In this document: positions 3,115 through 33,458 of the stretch, piece after piece
Layout of the letters: every line of letters begins with the position of its first letter
Position numbering within the stretch: the stretch's first letter is position 1
Assembly: GCA_030690985.1 (NCBI GenBank)
Contig: JAUYFG010000173.1
Location: forward strand, 1-33,994
From: Pseudomonadota bacterium
GTDB taxonomy: Bacteria > Pseudomonadota > Gammaproteobacteria > Burkholderiales > Thiobacillaceae
Direction: 5' to 3'
Length of the DNA stretch: 33,994 nucleotides
Notes under the pieces: generated by a model
What the model was told of the DNA's origin: nothing
Seen by the model: only the letters and a program-made list of their open reading frames with translations
The model's database searches: none
Position numbers and translations under genes: made by a program

Positions 3115-3321
3115 ATGATGGCATCCGCGCGGCGGGGGCTGATTGGAAAAGCGGCCTCGAAGGCCATCGCCCTACTCAGACTCACCCACCGCCGGTTCAA
3201 CCTGTTTGCCATCACGTTGAACGTGCGCAAGGCGACGCAACCGGAACCGAAACTGAAGGCGATCTATGAGGCACTGGGGCTGCATCCCTTGCCGGGCGGG
3301 ACGAAAAAAATGGTCGCTTGA
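3115..3321 (+). pseudogene. Possible gene remnant beginning at the edge of the mobile element
   Basis: The frame encodes 68 residues, basic in the first half (LLRLTHRRFNLFAITLNVRK) and ending GLHPLPGGTKKMVA. Its first ATG falls within the ATGAT duplication bordering the 354-bp element, and there is no Shine-Dalgarno. It may be the tail of a longer gene, possibly a transposase, that has lost its front part, or merely an open frame in GC-rich DNA. I do not recognise the family. The following stretch, 3322-3569, holds nothing I can support apart from a short palindrome near 3516-3539. Confidence 0.25.
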
Positions 3322-5946: not shown

Positions 5947-6897
5947 CTATTCGCTGAACAGCGAGCTCACGGAATCTTCATCGCTGATACGGCGGATGGT
6001 TTCCGCCATCAGGTTGGCGACCGACAGTTGGCGAATGCGGGAACTGGCACGGGCATCGTCGCGCAACGGAATCGTGTCGGTCACGACCAGCTCGTCGAGC
6101 GCCGAATTGCTCACCCGCTCCACCGCACTGCCGGATAGAACGGCATGGGTGCAGTAAGCCACGACTCGCTTGGCGCCCTGTTCCTTGAGTGCATTGGCGG
6201 CTTCGCACAGGGTGTTCGCGGTATCGACCATGTCGTCCATGATCAGACAGGTACGGCCTTTCACATCGCCGATGATATTCATCACCTTGGCGACATTGGG
6301 CTTGGGACGCCGCTTGTCGATGATGGCGAGTTCGCATTCCAGACGCTTGGCGACAGCGCGTGCGCGCACCACGCCACCGACGTCGGGAGACACGACCATC
6401 AGGTTGTCGTAGTTCTGCTTCCAGATGTCGCCCATCAGGATGGGTGTGGAATAGATGTTGTCGACCGGGATATCGAAGAAACCCTGGATCTGATCAGAGT
6501 GCAGATCCATGGTCAGAACCCGATTGACCCCGACCACGGTGAGCATGTCAGCGACCACGCGAGCCGTGATGGGCACGCGCGCGGAACGGACACGGCGATC
6601 CTGGCGGGCATAACCGAGATAGGGAATGGCGGCGGTGATGCGTCCGGCGGAGGCGCGACGCAGGGCGTCCACCATCAACATGATTTCCATCAAGCTGTCA
6701 TTGGTGGGCGAACAGGTGGACTGGAGCACGAACACGTCCTTGCCGCGCACGTTCTCCATGATTTCCACGTTCACTTCGCCGTCGGAAAAGCGGCCGACAG
6801 TCGCGCGCCCCATGCTGATATTGAGGTAGCGCACCACATCCTCGGCAAGTTTGGGATGCGCATTGCCGGTGAACACCATCAAGCTGTCATATGCCAT
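5947..6897 (-). CDS. prs: Ribose-phosphate pyrophosphokinase (PRPP synthetase)
   Basis: The enzyme makes PRPP from ribose 5-phosphate and ATP for nucleotide, histidine and tryptophan synthesis. Class I motifs are present: the [12 protein letters not shown] region, the [18 protein letters not shown] segment, and the PRPP-binding loop [12 protein letters not shown] chose the ATG at 6897 (316 residues), preceded by AGGGG 7 nt upstream; an in-frame TTG at 6903 has no signal. The stretch GTTGCTGATGGC occurs twice just upstream of the start, a small local duplication. It lies downstream of tRNA-Gln in the order usual for betaproteobacteria, separated by a terminator-like hairpin. Confidence 0.97.
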
Positions 6898-17326: not shown

Positions 17327-17399
17327 GTAGGTTGGGCAAAGCGAAGCGTGCCCAACGAACCGCCGCGATGTTGGGCACGCTTCGCTTTGCCCAACCTAC
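17327..17399. repeat. Palindromic repeat with perfect 30-bp arms
   Basis: The arms at 17327-17356 and 17370-17399 are exact reverse complements (beginning GTAGGTTGGGCAAAGCGAAG), with a 13-nt loop. It belongs to a type of intergenic palindrome (GTAGG...GCGAAGCG...) of which the elements at 10333 and 32664 look like distant relatives. Confidence 0.9.
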
Positions 17400-23717: not shown

Positions 23718-25076
23718 ATGAAGAGATTGTTATTTGTCCTGAGCATTGCCGTCACCGCCGCAGCCCACGCCGAAATCGTCGATCAGACGCTCGCCAATGG
23801 CATGCGCGTCATCGTCAAGACCGACCGCCGCGCCCCGGTGGCGGTATCGCAGGTCTGGTATCGCGCCGGCAGCATGGACGAGAGCTATGGCACGACCGGC
23901 GTGGCGCATGTGCTGGAGCACATGATGTTCAAGGGCACCCCTGAGGTGCCGGCCGGCGAATTCTCGCGCCGCATCGCCGCCGCCGGTGGGCGCGAAAACG
24001 CCTTCACCTCGCGCGACCACACCGCTTATTTCCAGACCTTGCAGAAGGATCGCCTGGAATTGGCCCTGAAATTGGAGGCCGACCGCATGGCGCATCTGGT
24101 GTTGTCCGCCGACGAGTTCGCCAAGGAAATCCAGGTAGTCATGGAAGAACGGCGGCTACGCACCGAGGACAGCGCGCAGGGGCTGCTTTACGAAGGACTG
24201 ATGGCCAGTGCATTCCAGGCGCATCCGTACCGGCATCCGGTCATCGGCTGGATGAATGATCTCAAGAACATGAGCGTGGACGACGCGCGCGCCTGGTATC
24301 AACGCTGGTACGCCCCCAACAACGCCACGCTGGTGGTGGCGGGCGATGTCGACCCCACCCAGGTGTTCGCCTGGGCGCAACAGTATTTCGGCCCGCTCGC
24401 CGCCCGCCCTCTGCCGCTGCGCAAGCCGCAACACGAGCCGGAACAGAACGGCGCAAGGCAGGTGACGGTGAAAGCGCCGGCCAAGCAGCCGGTGGTGGCG
24501 CTCGCCTGGCAGGCGCCGACCCTGACCGACGCGGAGAAGGACAGTGACCCCTATGCCCTGGAAATTCTCGCCGGGGTACTGGACGGCCACGCCTCGGCGC
24601 GTCTGAACCAGTCCCTGGTACGGGAGAAACGCCTGGCCACCGAAGCCAGCGCCGGCTACGACGCGGTCTCGCGCGGCCCCGCCCTGTTCATGGTCGATGC
24701 CACACCGGCCGAGGGCCATACGGTGGCGGAACTCGAAGCGGCGCTGAAGCAGGAAATCGCCCGCATCGTGAAGGACGGCGTCGATGAGAAGGAACTCGCC
24801 CGAGTCAAGGCGCAGGTACTGGCGAGCCAGGTGTATCAGCAGGACTCCTTGTTCTATCAGGCCATGCTGATCGGCGAGTGGACCACCGCCGGACTCGATT
24901 ACCGGGCGCGCGACATCCGTTTCCGCAAATTGAGGGAAGTCACCGCCGAGCAGGTGCGCGCGGTGGCCGCGAAATACCTGGTGGACAGCACATTGACCGT
25001 GGCGCAACTCGACCCGCAACCGCTGGACAGCAACAAACCCGCCAAACGTGGCTTCGGAGGCCGTCATGCGAATTGA
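23718..25076 (+). CDS. M16 family zinc metallopeptidase (catalytic partner)
   Basis: The 452-residue protein begins with a signal peptide (MKRLLFVLSIAVTAAAHA) and is therefore periplasmic. The inverted zinc motif HVLEH is at residues 64-68, with the third ligand Glu144 in VVMEERR, and the FTSRDHTAY substrate-binding stretch between. It resembles processing-peptidase-type M16 proteins that work as pairs. The next gene encodes the partner without the zinc motif. An ATG overlap with that gene's likely original start (25066) shows they were translationally coupled. Confidence 0.95.
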   Translation: MKRLLFVLSIAVTAAAHAEIVDQTLANGMRVIVKTDRRAPVAVSQVWYRAGSMDESYGTTGVAHVLEHMMFKGTPEVPAGEFSRRIAAAGGRENAFTSRDHTAYFQTLQKDRLELALKLEADRMAHLVLSADEFAKEIQVVMEERRLRTEDSAQGLLYEGLMASAFQAHPYRHPVIGWMNDLKNMSVDDARAWYQRWYAPNNATLVVAGDVDPTQVFAWAQQYFGPLAARPLPLRKPQHEPEQNGARQVTVKAPAKQPVVALAWQAPTLTDAEKDSDPYALEILAGVLDGHASARLNQSLVREKRLATEASAGYDAVSRGPALFMVDATPAEGHTVAELEAALKQEIARIVKDGVDEKELARVKAQVLASQVYQQDSLFYQAMLIGEWTTAGLDYRARDIRFRKLREVTAEQVRAVAAKYLVDSTLTVAQLDPQPLDSNKPAKRGFGGRHAN

Positions 25077-26520
25077 GCGCCATCAACCCGTCATTCCCGC
25101 GAAAGCGGGAATCCAGTTCGTTCATCAAACCTCACTCAGCCCGACAAACTGGATTCCCGCTGGAGCCTGCCCTCGACTCCGATCGGGGACGGGAATGACG
25201 GTGGTGCCCAAGCTCGTTCTTTTCCTTTCGGCCATCCTCCTCGCGCCCGCCGCCCTGGCCGGCCTCGACATCCAGAACTGGACCACGCCGCAGGGCGCGC
25301 GCGTCTACTTTGTCGAAAACCACGAATTGCCGATGCTGGACATCAGTGTCGATTTCGACGCCGGCAGCGCCCGCGACAGCCGCGAAAAATCCGGCCTCGC
25401 CAGCCTCACCCGCCATGTCATGGCCCTGGGCGCGGGTCATTACGAAGAGCGTGACATCGCGGAAAAGATGGCCGACGTGGGCGCCAATCTGGGCGGCCGC
25501 CTCGATGCCGACCGCGCCGGCTTTCAGGTGCGCACGCTCTCCGGCAAGACGGAACGGACTCAAGCCGTTGATCTGCTCGCCGCCATCCTGTCCGCGCCGC
25601 GCTTTGCCGCCGGCATCCTGGAGCGGGAGAAAGCGCGCGTCATCGCCGGCTTGCAGGAGTCTGAAACGCGCCCCGAGTACATCGGCGCCAAGGCCTTCCA
25701 GGCGGCGATCTACGGTGACCACCCCTATGCGCTCAACGAAGGCGGCGAACTGGAAACGGTAGCGAAACTCGGGCGCGACGACCTGGTCGCCTTCCATCGC
25801 AGCTATTACCGGGCGCACAACATGGCCATCGCGGTCATGGGCGACATCAGCCGCGCGGAAGCGGAAAAACTGGCGGCAAAACTGGCCAGCGGCCTGCCGC
25901 CGGGTGAAGCGCCCAGCGCGATTCCGCCGGTCAAAGCCATGCCGCAGGGTAAGCAACAAGTCATTCCCCACCCCGCCACGCAGAGCCATCTGTTCATGGG
26001 GCTGCCTGGCCTCAAACGCGAGGACCCGGATTACTTCCCGCTCTATGTGGGCAACTACGTCCTCGGCGGCGGCGGCTTCGATTCGCGCCTGACCAAGGCC
26101 ATCCGCGACAAGAAGGGCCTGGCCTACAGCGTCTACAGCTACTTCATGCCGATGCGCGAACGGGGGCCGTTCCAGATCGGACTGCAAACCCGCCGCGAAT
26201 CCACCGACGATGCGGTTCGCTACGCTCACCACATCCTGCATGCCTACCTGGAAGAAGGCCCCAACGAGGCCGAGCTGACCCAGGCCAAGAACAACCTGGT
26301 CGGCGGTTTTCCCATGCGCATCGACAGCAACAAGAAAATTCTCGAATACCTGGCGGTGATCGGCTTCTATCGCCTGCCGCTGAACTGGCTGGACACCTAT
26401 ACCGCCCAAGTGGAAGCGGTCAGCCATGACGACATCCGGCGCGCCTTCCGCGCGCGGGTATCGCCGGCGGCGATGAGCACCGTGATCGTGGGTGGACAGC
26501 GTGAAGGCCAAAGCAAATAA
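25066..26520 (+). CDS. M16 family peptidase-like protein (non-catalytic partner), signal peptide interrupted by a repeat
   Basis: From 25195 the protein has a normal signal peptide (MTVVPKLVLFLSAILLAPAA) and 441 residues of M16 fold. The zinc motif is absent: the position reads LTRHVMALGAGHYEE. The C-terminal RREST and R/Y motifs (AIRDKKGLAYSVYSYF) that shape the substrate chamber are present. The best Shine-Dalgarno (GGAGG) however precedes the ATG at 25066 (MRIERH), overlapping the preceding stop. Between the two ATGs lies a 112-bp PAKAGIQ-type palindromic repeat kept in frame, giving a 484-residue form with a 43-residue repeat-derived extension. The ATG at 25195 lies within the repeat's right arm and has a G-rich stretch before it, so it may be the working start. 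Confidence 0.9.
   Translation: MRIERHQPVIPAKAGIQFVHQTSLSPTNWIPAGACPRLRSGTGMTVVPKLVLFLSAILLAPAALAGLDIQNWTTPQGARVYFVENHELPMLDISVDFDAGSARDSREKSGLASLTRHVMALGAGHYEERDIAEKMADVGANLGGRLDADRAGFQVRTLSGKTERTQAVDLLAAILSAPRFAAGILEREKARVIAGLQESETRPEYIGAKAFQAAIYGDHPYALNEGGELETVAKLGRDDLVAFHRSYYRAHNMAIAVMGDISRAEAEKLAAKLASGLPPGEAPSAIPPVKAMPQGKQQVIPHPATQSHLFMGLPGLKREDPDYFPLYVGNYVLGGGGFDSRLTKAIRDKKGLAYSVYSYFMPMRERGPFQIGLQTRRESTDDAVRYAHHILHAYLEEGPNEAELTQAKNNLVGGFPMRIDSNKKILEYLAVIGFYRLPLNWLDTYTAQVEAVSHDDIRRAFRARVSPAAMSTVIVGGQREGQSK
25089..25200. repeat. Palindromic repeat of the VIPAKAGIQ type inside a coding sequence
   Basis: The left part is a hairpin (CGTCATTCCCGCGAAAGCGG...) and the right part ends CGGGAATGACG, complementary to the left end. 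Repeats of this type are widespread in beta- and gammaproteobacteria, where their translation reads VIPAKAGIQ. This copy lies between the start codon and the signal-peptide core of the second M16 gene. Confidence 0.9.
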
Positions 26521-30814: not shown

Positions 30815-31327
30815 ATGCGCTGGCTCAGCCTTGTTCTCACGCTCGCTTTTGCCCTGCCCGCCCTGGCCGAAGTGCGCGATCCGCACAGCCACTTCTTCAT
30901 GTCCAGGATGGGTGATTTCAAGGACGAACTCAGCACCGCCAAACAGGACGGCAAACAGGGCGTGCTGATCATGTTCGAAATGGAAGAGTGCCCGTTCTGC
31001 GCGCGCATGAAGGGCACGGTGCTCAACCAGTCCGAAGTGCAGGACTGGTACCGCAAACACTTCCTCATCTACACGGTGGACGTGAAAGGCGGCACCGACC
31101 TGACCGACTTCCAGGGCAACGCCACCAGCGAAAAAGCCTTCGCCCTGGCCAACCGGGCGCGCGCCACCCCCACCTTCCTGTTCTTCGACCTGCAAGGCAA
31201 CGCCATCACCCGCTTCACCGGCGCCACCCAGACGCCCGAGGAATTCATGCTGCTCGGCCGTTATGTGGTGGAAGGCGCCTACAAAACCCAAGCGTTCAAC
31301 ATCTACAAGAAGGCCGCCAAACCATGA
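30815..31327 (+). CDS. SoxW/DsbD-C-type periplasmic thioredoxin-fold protein
   Basis: The 170-residue protein has a signal peptide (MRWLSLVLTLAFALPALA) and a thioredoxin fold with the redox pair in EECPFCARM (Cys59, Cys62). The cis-Pro segment is RATPTFLFF. It resembles thioredoxin_2/SoxW-like proteins. The stop overlaps the ATG of the TolC-like gene (ATGA), so it is firmly part of this operon. GGGAGA precedes its start. Confidence 0.9.
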   Translation: MRWLSLVLTLAFALPALAEVRDPHSHFFMSRMGDFKDELSTAKQDGKQGVLIMFEMEECPFCARMKGTVLNQSEVQDWYRKHFLIYTVDVKGGTDLTDFQGNATSEKAFALANRARATPTFLFFDLQGNAITRFTGATQTPEEFMLLGRYVVEGAYKTQAFNIYKKAAKP

Positions 31328-32616
31328 GACGCTGGTTGCCGCTCCTGGCACTCCTCGCCGGCAGCGCCCTGGCGACCGCAATGGCAGCCGAGCCGGCGCC
31401 GACCCTCACCCTGGAAGCCGTGCTGGCTGCCGCCGAAGCGCCGCACCCCGACCTCGACCTCGCCCGCGCGCAACAGGCCGGCGCCCAAGCCGAACAACAA
31501 CTCGCCGCGAGCCTGAGTGACTTCCGCGTCAGCCTCGAAGGCACGCTGCGCACGGGGCGCAACCCGTTTTATAACGACCGTTTCCACCCCGACCACCAGG
31601 CCCGGCTCAACGCCCGCAAGACCCTGTTCGACGCCGGCCGCCAGGACAGCGGCCTCGCCGCCGCGCGCGATGAAAGCGCCGCGCGTGGCCTGCAACTGCT
31701 CGACACCCGCAGCCAGCGCCGCCTCACCCTGATGGCGCGCTACTTCGATTCGCTCCTGGCCGACATGCAATACGCCGCCGACACCGAGTTCATGGCGACC
31801 GCCTATGTGGCGTGGGACAACGCCCGCGACCGCCAGGCACTAGGCCAGATGGCGCAATGGGAACTGGCCGAACTGGAAGCGCGCCATCTCGACAGCCGCG
31901 CCCGGCGCAACGACGTACTCCGCAAATTGCGCGACAAGCGCATGCAGCTTGCCGTTGCCCTCAACCGCCCGCAAACCGTGCAGGAAGACCTGGTCGACCC
32001 CAAGCTCACCGGCAATGAACGCAAGCTGCCGGAACTGGCGCCGCTGCTCGACGCCATGCTCAGCCACAACCCACGCCTGCTGGCCCAGAAGCAATTGCTC
32101 ACCGCCACGCAAAGCCGCATCGAAGGCGTGCGCGCCGACAACCGCCCCAGCGTCGAATTCGAAGCGGAAGCCGCCGCCTGGAGCCGTGATGCCAGCACTC
32201 GCGACGACCTCCGCGCCGGCCTCAACTTCGTCTGGCCGCTATGGCAGGGCGGCCGCGTCGATGCCCGCATGGCGCGCGAACAAGCCACCTTCATGGAACG
32301 CCAGGCCCAGCACGACAAACTGCAATTGGAACTGCGCCAGACCCTGGCCGACACCTGGGAAGAAATCCAGGTGTTGCGTGAATCCGAACGCGGCAGCAGC
32401 CAGGCCAACGCGCTCTACCGCGACCTCGCCCTGGAAAAAGCGCGCGCCGAATACGAACTGGAACTGAAAACCAACCTGGGGGCGAGCATGGCCGAAACCC
32501 AGTCCGCCCAATTGCGCAAACGCGCTGTCGAATATCGCCTGGCACTCGCCTTCGCGCGCCTGGAATCCCTGCTGGGCGCAGCGCTGGAAACAGTGAAAGT
32601 GGAGGAAAAGAAATGA
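31324..32616 (+). CDS. TolC-family outer-membrane channel protein
   Basis: The 430-residue protein begins with a signal peptide (MRRWLPLLALLAGSALATAMAA) and shows two duplicated helical halves with the usual TolC features: LTLEAVLAAAEAPHPDLDLA, FVWPLWQGGRVDAR, and LRKRAVEYRLALAFARLESLLGA. It would form an outer-membrane exit duct. It overlaps the preceding thioredoxin gene and the following adaptor gene by 4 bp each. Confidence 0.9.
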   Translation: MRRWLPLLALLAGSALATAMAAEPAPTLTLEAVLAAAEAPHPDLDLARAQQAGAQAEQQLAASLSDFRVSLEGTLRTGRNPFYNDRFHPDHQARLNARKTLFDAGRQDSGLAAARDESAARGLQLLDTRSQRRLTLMARYFDSLLADMQYAADTEFMATAYVAWDNARDRQALGQMAQWELAELEARHLDSRARRNDVLRKLRDKRMQLAVALNRPQTVQEDLVDPKLTGNERKLPELAPLLDAMLSHNPRLLAQKQLLTATQSRIEGVRADNRPSVEFEAEAAAWSRDASTRDDLRAGLNFVWPLWQGGRVDARMAREQATFMERQAQHDKLQLELRQTLADTWEEIQVLRESERGSSQANALYRDLALEKARAEYELELKTNLGASMAETQSAQLRKRAVEYRLALAFARLESLLGAALETVKVEEKK

Positions 32617-33458
32617 ATCCGTGTCTTGTCGAGGCTTTGCGAAACACGCAACACAGTGATTCCGTAGGGTGGATAAGCGAAGCGCATCCACCATTGACGG
32701 CGAAGGTGGTGGATGCGCTTCGCTTATCCACCCTACCGCTTCTGTTCGCTTTGGTCGCCGGTAACGCCCTCGCTGCGGACCTCCCCGCCACACTCGACTG
32801 GTCCGGCCGTATCAGCCTCACCTTGCCGGTCGCCGGCGTGATCGAACAAGTCAACGTCCAGGCCGGCCAGACGGTGAAAAAGGACGAACTGCTCGCCGCC
32901 CTCAACCCCACCTTGTTCAAAGCCGGCATCGCCGAAACACGCGCCGATCTCGACCGTTTCACGCAAGAAGAAGCCGACGCCAGCCGCGACCTCGACCGGG
33001 TCAAGGAGCTCTACGCGCGCACCGTCTCCTCCACCACCGAACTCGACGCCGCCAAACTGCGTCATGCCCGCGCCCAGGCCGGGCTGGCCGCCGCCCAGGC
33101 ACGGGTGGAAAAAGCCCGCCGTCTGCTCGTCGAATCGGAACTGCGCGCCCCCTTCGCCGCCATCATCCTCGCCCGCCACGGCGAACCCGGTCTGGTCATC
33201 ACCTCCCCCTGCCAACCCGCCGCCGTCGTCAGCGTCGCCCGTGCCGACGAATGGCTGGCACGCGCCCCCATCGAAGCCGCCCAGGCCGCCAACCTGCGCC
33301 TCGGCGAAGAAGCCGGCGTACAGATCGCCGGCCAGAGCATCAAAGGCCGCATCCGCGCAATCACTGCGCAACCGGAAGGCCGCGCCCTCCTCGACGTCGC
33401 CCTCCCGCGCAACCCCGGCACCTATGCCGGTCAGGCCGCCAGCATTCACCTGCCCTGA
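32613..33458 (+). CDS. Periplasmic adaptor (membrane fusion) protein with a repeat inside its leader
   Basis: The 281-residue protein has a lipoyl half (LPVAGVIEQVNVQAGQTVKK), a short alpha-hairpin (TRADLDRFTQEEADASRDLD ... RVEKARRLLVESELRAPFA) and a beta-barrel part, as in small RND-type adaptors. The start at 32613 has GGAGG and overlaps the previous stop. Between this start and the hydrophobic leader (LSTLPLLFALVAGNALAA) lies a palindromic repeat (32664-32736), translated as VGWISEAHPPLTAKVVDALR. Thus the first 40 or so residues include repeat-derived sequence; a GTG at 32707 or 32710 (VVDALRLSTLPLLF) would give a leader of normal length. No pump gene follows. Confidence 0.88.
   Translation: MNPCLVEALRNTQHSDSVGWISEAHPPLTAKVVDALRLSTLPLLFALVAGNALAADLPATLDWSGRISLTLPVAGVIEQVNVQAGQTVKKDELLAALNPTLFKAGIAETRADLDRFTQEEADASRDLDRVKELYARTVSSTTELDAAKLRHARAQAGLAAAQARVEKARRLLVESELRAPFAAIILARHGEPGLVITSPCQPAAVVSVARADEWLARAPIEAAQAANLRLGEEAGVQIAGQSIKGRIRAITAQPEGRALLDVALPRNPGTYAGQAASIHLP
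32664..32736. repeat. Palindromic repeat with perfect 29-bp arms inside the adaptor gene
   Basis: The arms at 32664-32692 and 32708-32736 (beginning GTAGGGTGGATAAGCGAAGC) are exact complements, with a 15-nt loop. Such GTAGGGTGGATAAGCG..GCATCCACC palindromes are common between genes of proteobacteria; this one lies within the coding frame. Confidence 0.92.

Follow-up and report, generated by a model that had tools for sequence, protein, structure and literature searches.

The window, ie the whole stretch of 33,994 nucleotides that was analysed, carries towards its right-hand end the gene for an outer-membrane efflux factor, followed directly by that for a periplasmic adaptor (Table 1). The adaptor matched TIGR01730 with 105 bits (cut-off 94.9). 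Its ATG at 32613 is preceded by GGAGG at a spacing of 7 nt and shares an ATGA overlap with the stop of the efflux factor gene. A palindrome begins 51 nt from the first base of this ATG and ends just before the core of the signal peptide; its two arms are 30 nt each, 100% complementary, and separated by a loop of 13 nt. The reading frame stays open from the ATG through the palindrome into LLFALVAGNALA and then ADLPATLDW. The first-pass annotation had placed a palindrome between the GGAGG-ATG and the signal-peptide core of the adaptor with the frame intact, which was confirmed; the arms, described there as perfect over 29 bp, are perfect over 30 nt. The palindrome score was 30 and none of ten shuffled windows gave 15 or more, so a chance palindrome was rejected. 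Folding of the RNA from 32590 to 32760 gave a minimum free energy of -84 kcal/mol (z -7.4), ie a very stable hairpin. In what follows G000 is the genome of the window, other G numbers are the genomes compared and L numbers are the sequence stretches surveyed.

Table 1. Features of the window and N-terminal in-frame insertions found in the survey of G000. Positions are those of the window unless an L number is given.
Feature	Position	Strand	Basis or remark
Outer-membrane efflux factor, OEP/TolC type, upstream gene	31324..32616	+	Pfam PF02321 (scanned from 31318); start per gene caller
Stop TGA of efflux factor	32614-32616	+	Overlaps adaptor ATG
Periplasmic adaptor ORF (RND_mfp/HlyD type), insert in signal-peptide n-region	32613..33458	+	PF13437 (HlyD_3), PF13533, TIGR01730
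Inserted DNA, approximate extent	32616..32736	+	Net +111 nt relative to G016 and G017
Left flank travelling with the repeat, partly common to a subset of copies	32616..32663	+	Sequence comparison
Left arm, GTAG-tagged REP	32664..32693	+	Palindrome search
Loop separating the two REPs	32694..32706	+	Palindrome search
Right arm, inverted REP, CTAC end	32707..32736	+	Palindrome search
Signal-peptide hydrophobic core and c-region (LLFALVAGNALA)	32737..32774	+	Aligned with empty orthologues; cleavage site inferred
M16 peptidase-like gene (M16b), second n-region insert	25066..26520	+	Pfam search, orthologue comparison
CGTC-tagged REP dimer in M16 leader	25089..25200	+	Net +132 nt relative to commonest junction length
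GTAGGTTGGGC-type dimer, intergenic contrast case between moaA and rpoH	17327..17399	+	Palindrome search
FlgH, exported/leader-type insertion	L141:4228		Manual reading
NirF-like, exported/leader-type insertion	L191:1152		Manual reading
YfiR, exported/leader-type insertion	L201:10419		Manual reading
Pseudopilin GspH-like, exported/leader-type, two elements in leader	L295:8068	-	Manual reading
Periplasmic-binding-like protein, exported/leader-type, weak case	L295:15751-15836 (element)		Manual reading
NifQ-like gene, cytosolic insertion	L152		Manual reading
Glycosyltransferase-like gene, cytosolic insertion	L297:9634		Manual reading

The element at 32664 is a GTAG-tagged REP dimer, or REPIN. It reads GTAG-GGTGGAT-AAGCGAAGCGC-ATCCACC, mirrored at the opposite end, and its arms form a head-to-head inverted pair with the GTAG ends outward. 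Copies of this family are dispersed in G000 with differing flanks, and gave at least 80 matches in roughly 30 regions; the count covers both strands, includes partial and tandem copies, and is a lower bound because only the best 40 of 63 candidates were scored. Four Y1 transposase domains were found. A RAYT at L154:2595-3113 (REP_Tyr_transpos NF047646, 197.8 bits) is flanked at about 2447-2572 and 3156-3232 by copies of the GTAG family, both of a close sub-variant with a GCGATAGCGC core, and this RAYT is the putative source of mobility for the GTAG element. The repeat in the M16 leader belongs to a different family, with a CGTC end, a short stem, a head-to-head dimer and many copies (at least 69 matches in G000 over both strands, from the best 40 of 131 candidates scored). 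Two arrangements of REPs elsewhere in G000 were also seen. At L155:2449-2665 (contig C282) five REP units stand in tandem with a 54-nt spacing, close to the contig end. On the minus strand of L039:736-2103 (contig C15) a single ORF fuses a Y1 transposase half resembling a RAYT to a second half that, from a reading of its sequence, was labelled uracil-DNA-glycosylase-like, the two being joined via REP-encoded linkers.

The adaptor junction was scored in 19 genomes of the genus, G000 among them. Short leaders (MMLR-T/A-L) straight after the overlapping ATG represent the empty site in G019, G016 and G017, and the site is filled in G000 and G006. The adaptor of G006, at 92% protein identity, carries this insert too, likewise in frame, on contig JAUXXW010000178.1, and an assembly artefact of a single MAG was rejected for that reason. 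The insert is longer than the palindrome, and a left flank of up to 48 nt resembles the sequence beside a subset of the family's other copies. Between start and core, also in frame, the adaptor of G022 carries a single REP-like hairpin (GTGGGAGCGGGCTGGCCCGCG), which is not a scored palindrome, and that of G005 an imperfect palindrome (CCTGTAGTGCCGGCG...CGCCGGCGCTACAGG). By eye both resemble REP types elsewhere in the compared sequences; these two inserts and the M16b insert of G017 gave self-matches only at E 1e-4 within the sequence set compared. G000 and G006 differ at 1/60 sites in the arms and 10/61 in flank plus loop (Fisher p=0.008). Five of the seven changed codons in the left flank are non-synonymous, and 34 of 49 in the rest of the adaptor gene are synonymous. 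The palindrome is kept and the peptide beside it is not, either by selection on the hairpin or by homogenisation. Two further peculiarities of adaptor genes were noted. In G009 and G008 (L015, L016) extra residues stand right after the signal-peptide cleavage region, those of G009 being a TSVATSVATSV-type tandem repeat. The adaptor match of G017 (L034, G017:C126:31496-32138) is split across two frames, possibly a frameshifted copy or an assembly error.

The first-pass annotation had reported the same arrangement, with a different repeat family, at 25066. This was confirmed with a qualification. An in-frame leader insert of a different family is present there, the dimer at about 25089-25200 is imperfect (best stem 25104-25161, score 15), and an in-frame ATG at its end, 25195, could start a normal signal peptide. 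M16b inserts occur in 4 of 21 genomes (G000, G011, G014 and G017), all of them different, and the remaining 17 junctions are short. The G011 insert is a GTAGGAGCCTGGCTG palindrome. Those of G014 and G017 are not scored palindromes; the former matches other loci, and the latter resembles, by eye and reversed, a portion of the sequence inserted in the NirF leader of G011. FlgH had a match in 20 genomes, of which 19 were examined (the G020 match is split): a GTAGGTTGGGC dimer is common to G000 and G006 and a GTAGGGTGCGCC dimer is present in G012, each in frame in the lipoprotein leader. The NirF-like gene (15 genomes) has differing in-frame inserts after an overlapping start in G000, in G007 and G021, in G002 and in G011, the frame of the last resting on one comparison in which no palindrome scored. 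Lengthened NirF-like n-regions in which no palindrome scored were seen in G006 and G016 (L341, L342) and in G020 and G014 (L348, L350); they are possibly decayed inserts. Nine GspH orthologues were examined among 12 genomes with a match, and their leaders were too variable to score. The YfiR case was examined in G000, and a hydrophobic stretch precedes its element. The FlgH, NirF-like (Cytochrom_D1) and YfiR families come from profile searches; the GspH, NifQ-like, glycosyltransferase, binding-protein and NirF names come from manual reading.

The survey of G000 took in the window and 100 stretches, 1,018,784 nt of about 3.96 Mb, with 925 called genes. A signal-peptide or TM-like N-terminus was assigned to 255 of these (27.6%) by a crude hydrophobicity rule, not by SignalP. 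Because stretches chosen around copies are biased to repeat-rich places, two further sets were added, one of 40 contigs taken at steps of about eight and one of 20 large-contig stretches. The survey yielded 324 palindromes with a score of at least 14. Outside called coding sequence lay 304 of the 324, a figure that takes in several N-terminal cases, both window ones too, because the caller places those gene starts later. Elements between co-directional genes (n=199) lay at a median of 37 nt past the upstream stop. By manual reading there were nine N-terminal in-frame insertions, seven in exported or leader-type genes and two in cytosolic ones (Table 1), and a coincidence limited to HlyD and M16b was rejected on the strength of the additional cases. 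The binding-protein-like case is weak and has an in-element ATG with an SD. The exported share of 7/9 exceeds the base rate of 27.6% (p=0.0025), as does the 5/7 left when the two window genes are removed (p=0.020). Other candidates (L284, L292, L298, L299, L300, L191:6719, L162 and L140 among them) were rejected as intergenic because the usual start, or an SD-bearing start, follows the element. L211:697 and L135:6334 were left out of the N-terminal count as doubtful cases; the latter, at 6334-6408, is an in-frame REP dimer just past an N-terminal TM segment. In-frame dimers were also seen within genes labelled by manual reading as histidine kinase-like (L164:3383-3455), metal ATPase-like (L138:3177-3267) and helicase-like (L173:17906-17961).

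A scan including gene N-termini, as the first-pass annotation had proposed, was carried out on 1.02 Mb of G000. Per kb there were approximately 1.7 palindromes in non-coding DNA; n-regions had about 0.9 (7 within 7,566 nt), the opening seven codons of the remaining genes about 0.14 (2 within 14,070 nt) and coding interiors about 0.02 (15 listed, in frame). These densities are rough, the sample being partly taken around copies and the gene starts being predicted. The suggestion that n-regions are tolerated is upheld: in several species of the genus, different in-frame inserts occupy the same n-regions, and G000 and G006 have the HlyD insert in common. The stronger suggestion, of a preferred landing site, is borne out only in part: it gains from the seven exported cases against two cytosolic ones and loses from the 304 palindromes outside called coding sequence. 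Within coding sequence n-regions are over-represented, and this could come from insertion preference or from selective survival.

As a control across genomes, the distance from the upstream stop to the downstream core was taken for each gene-genome pair. In-frame N-terminal inserts were found in 10/84 exported pairs (m16b 4/21, hlyD 4/19, lolB 2/16, oep 0/18, trx2 0/10) and 0/107 cytosolic pairs (ychF 13, moeA 14, moaD 14, rsmD 22, coaD 22, ftsE 11, ftsX 11; Fisher p=0.0002), a comparison that is partly ascertained because M16b and hlyD were picked for their G000 inserts, and in which relatives are also non-independent. With events counted once and G000 removed, the numbers were 6/79 and 0/100 (p=0.0066). 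Exported genes picked without regard to G000 inserts (44 pairs) gave one shared, uncertain in-frame event, a weakly palindromic lolB extension common to G008 and G009. Cytosolic junctions were hit as well, with inserts between stop and start at ftsY-ftsE in G006, G022 and G011, at moeA-moaD in G012 and at moaD-moaE in G016; the large oep insert of G008 likewise lies before its ATG. There were ftsE-ftsX inserts in G022, G016 and G014, the ftsX case of G016 being ambiguous because the insert frame is open into the gene. Judged by distance, pth (14), ispE (16) and fdx (20), all outside the 107, had no in-frame insert; an extra 117 nt at pth of G010 is located upstream of its ATG.

From the observed identity and copy number of the element, its family on both sides of a RAYT, the empty and filled sites, the recurrence and the retained frame, it is probable that these are REPIN insertions near upstream stops, which survive in frame as cleavable extensions of the n-region. 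REPINs are mobile elements that are not autonomous; a RAYT probably moves them. In G000 the elements lie mostly at gene junctions, often shortly past the upstream stop, and because an ATGA overlap leaves little intergenic room, a surviving insertion would tend to fall within the opening codons of the gene that follows. In an exported protein the roughly 12 to 60 added residues would merely lengthen the n-region, and in-frame insertions would survive because the lengthened n-region is cleaved off. The persistence of REPINs is reportedly the subject of a separate REPIN paper. Contrary to this scheme, the FlgH ATG lies about 22 nt past the upstream stop, ie there is no overlap, and the cytosolic genes at L152 and L297 also have N-terminal in-frame elements. 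The scheme also competes with a reading in which the element is 5'-untranslated, with the true start lying within or past the repeat and an upstream frame that stays open fortuitously or as a remnant; in the portions of Di Nocera et al. 2013 (PMC3733652) on this point, a downstream start is preferred for many N-terminal REPs. Alternative starts are available at several genes: the ATG at 25195 in M16b, in-element GTG codons at 32706/32709 in HlyD, with an ATG in that place in G006, an ATG within the FlgH element and, in G000, G007 and G021, ATGs past the NirF element. A codon-usage gene caller picks 25195 and 32706, yet in an SD scan of the G000 HlyD, M16b, FlgH and NirF genes the listed in-element or downstream start codons had no SD match. 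In M16b of G014 an SD-like stretch does accompany a GTG immediately ahead of the h-region, and the second GspH element holds a TTG with an SD match. YfiR of G000 has no start codon within or past the element ahead of its hydrophobic core. In the same interval M16b of G017 offers a single one, a TTG where the insert begins on its left. No start codon was found past the element in HlyD of G005, M16b of G011 or GspH of G000, and FlgH of G012 offers after its element just a TTG inside the hydrophobic core. Since certain leaders lack any start codon past the element, at least part of it is probably translated there. Moreover, all nine independent events that were collected irrespective of frame (HlyD of G005 and G022; M16b of G011, G014 and G017; NirF of G007/G021, G011 and G002; FlgH of G012) keep the frame set by the ancestral-type start, for which chance gives at most (1/3)^9. 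Starts downstream of the repeats, which the first-pass annotation had named as grounds for abandoning its view, are thus possible for M16b of G000, HlyD, FlgH and NirF, fail for YfiR of G000 and nearly fail for M16b of G017, and we regard an untranslated element as rather unlikely. Under the insertion scheme, translation would begin at the ancestral start, and export and cleavage would be normal.

That the hairpin is kept to tune expression, by lowering translation or protecting the upstream message and setting the subunit ratio, is improbable. A very stable mRNA structure lying 50 nt into the second gene would suit such a role, as would the conserved arms in G000 and G006; arm conservation is also expected from gene conversion among copies or arms, and since close relatives carry different elements or none at the HlyD site, there is no conserved regulatory structure. 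E. coli REPs less than 16 nt from a stop can reduce translation, according to the available part of PMC12306157, whereas the gap between upstream stop and palindrome is here 47 nt, outside the published range (within 15 nt of the stop). It is more doubtful still that the transposition machinery targets such places, for example translation-coupled stop/start junctions, with the n-region preferred at the insertion step. Different repeats hit the same few junctions recurrently, and a stop-proximal bias of REPs is published (PMC3733652, in the part available), which would fit targeting. No target sequence was noticed, in what was not a systematic search, most elements lie outside called coding sequence, and the inserts at ftsY-ftsE, ftsE-ftsX, moeA-moaD and moaD-moaE lie between stop and start, as expected of broad insertion with selection. 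Insertion near stops with survival as a cleavable extension is the reading judged most probable here. At crowded junctions the n-region serves as a refuge in which insertions are tolerated, recurrent in the genus and above expectation among N-terminal insertions.

The GTAG-tagged REPs and REPINs described in the accessible sections of PMC3733652 have the same terminal GTAG, short stem-loop, head-to-head dimers and high copy number, the same location mostly at gene ends, a RAYT flanked by copies, and some copies in ORFs, including the N-terminus. Unlike the copies described in those sections, the N-terminal ones reported here occupy signal-peptide n-regions in exported genes that are conserved, have come up independently more than once among orthologues, and in some cases have no later start codon. 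The term 'signal peptide' is absent from the main text of that paper. The element at 25066 shares with its CGTC-tagged REPs, as far as those sections describe them, the CGTC ends, the ATTCCCGC...GCGGGAAT stem, the CCA-type tail and the head-to-head dimer, and differs in being inserted in the leader of an exported protein. The palindromic elements of Rickettsia and Wolbachia (RPE/WPE) are likewise palindromic mobile repeats in frame within proteins; in the consulted portions of PMC10969869 and PMC2229807 they have other hosts and varied proteins, and are not a signal-peptide phenomenon. Some R. conorii CGTC families are equated with RPE-4 and RPE-6 in the part of Di Nocera et al. consulted (PMC3733652); the window elements were set beside RPE by description, not sequence, and are not classed as such. 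In the MITE-derived signal peptides of Delihas (Yersinia YPO1552, PMC2229807, in part) a mobile repeat likewise contributes in frame to a signal peptide, there as a new exported ORF partly made of MITE, here as an existing signal peptide lengthened on the n side. Intragenic and N-terminal REPs are thus already published; among the top-ranked matches in the openly licensed literature, none described insertions that recur in the n-regions of signal peptides.

Many REPs at ORF starts are treated by Di Nocera et al., in the sections available, as possible start-site misannotation (PMC3733652). Empty-site orthologues place some REPs downstream of the start of ancestral type. This points to the n-regions of cleavable leaders as a class of coding sequence in which repeats are far more readily accepted than in the interiors of genes. 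It makes available a natural series of n-region extensions and a testable example of selection sorting mobile-element insertions, and in practice calls for care when start sites are called or signal peptides predicted in genomes rich in REPs. A wider proposal is offered tentatively, as possible though on balance doubtful: a genus-wide safe harbour, in which several families repeatedly enter n-regions at crowded junctions and are translated as cleavable extensions, diversifying leader length and charge and possibly tuning export or expression.

Longer inserts with inverted-repeat ends (...CCTCAG / CTGAGG...) were also seen, in the window at 2779-2956, itself an imperfect inverted repeat, and at moeA-moaD of G012 (L238), trx2-oep of G008 (L083) and ftsE-ftsX of G016 (L080). 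By eye, those of G012 and G008 have CCGAGTGTGCG in common with the window copy, which suggests a second, MITE family at gene junctions.
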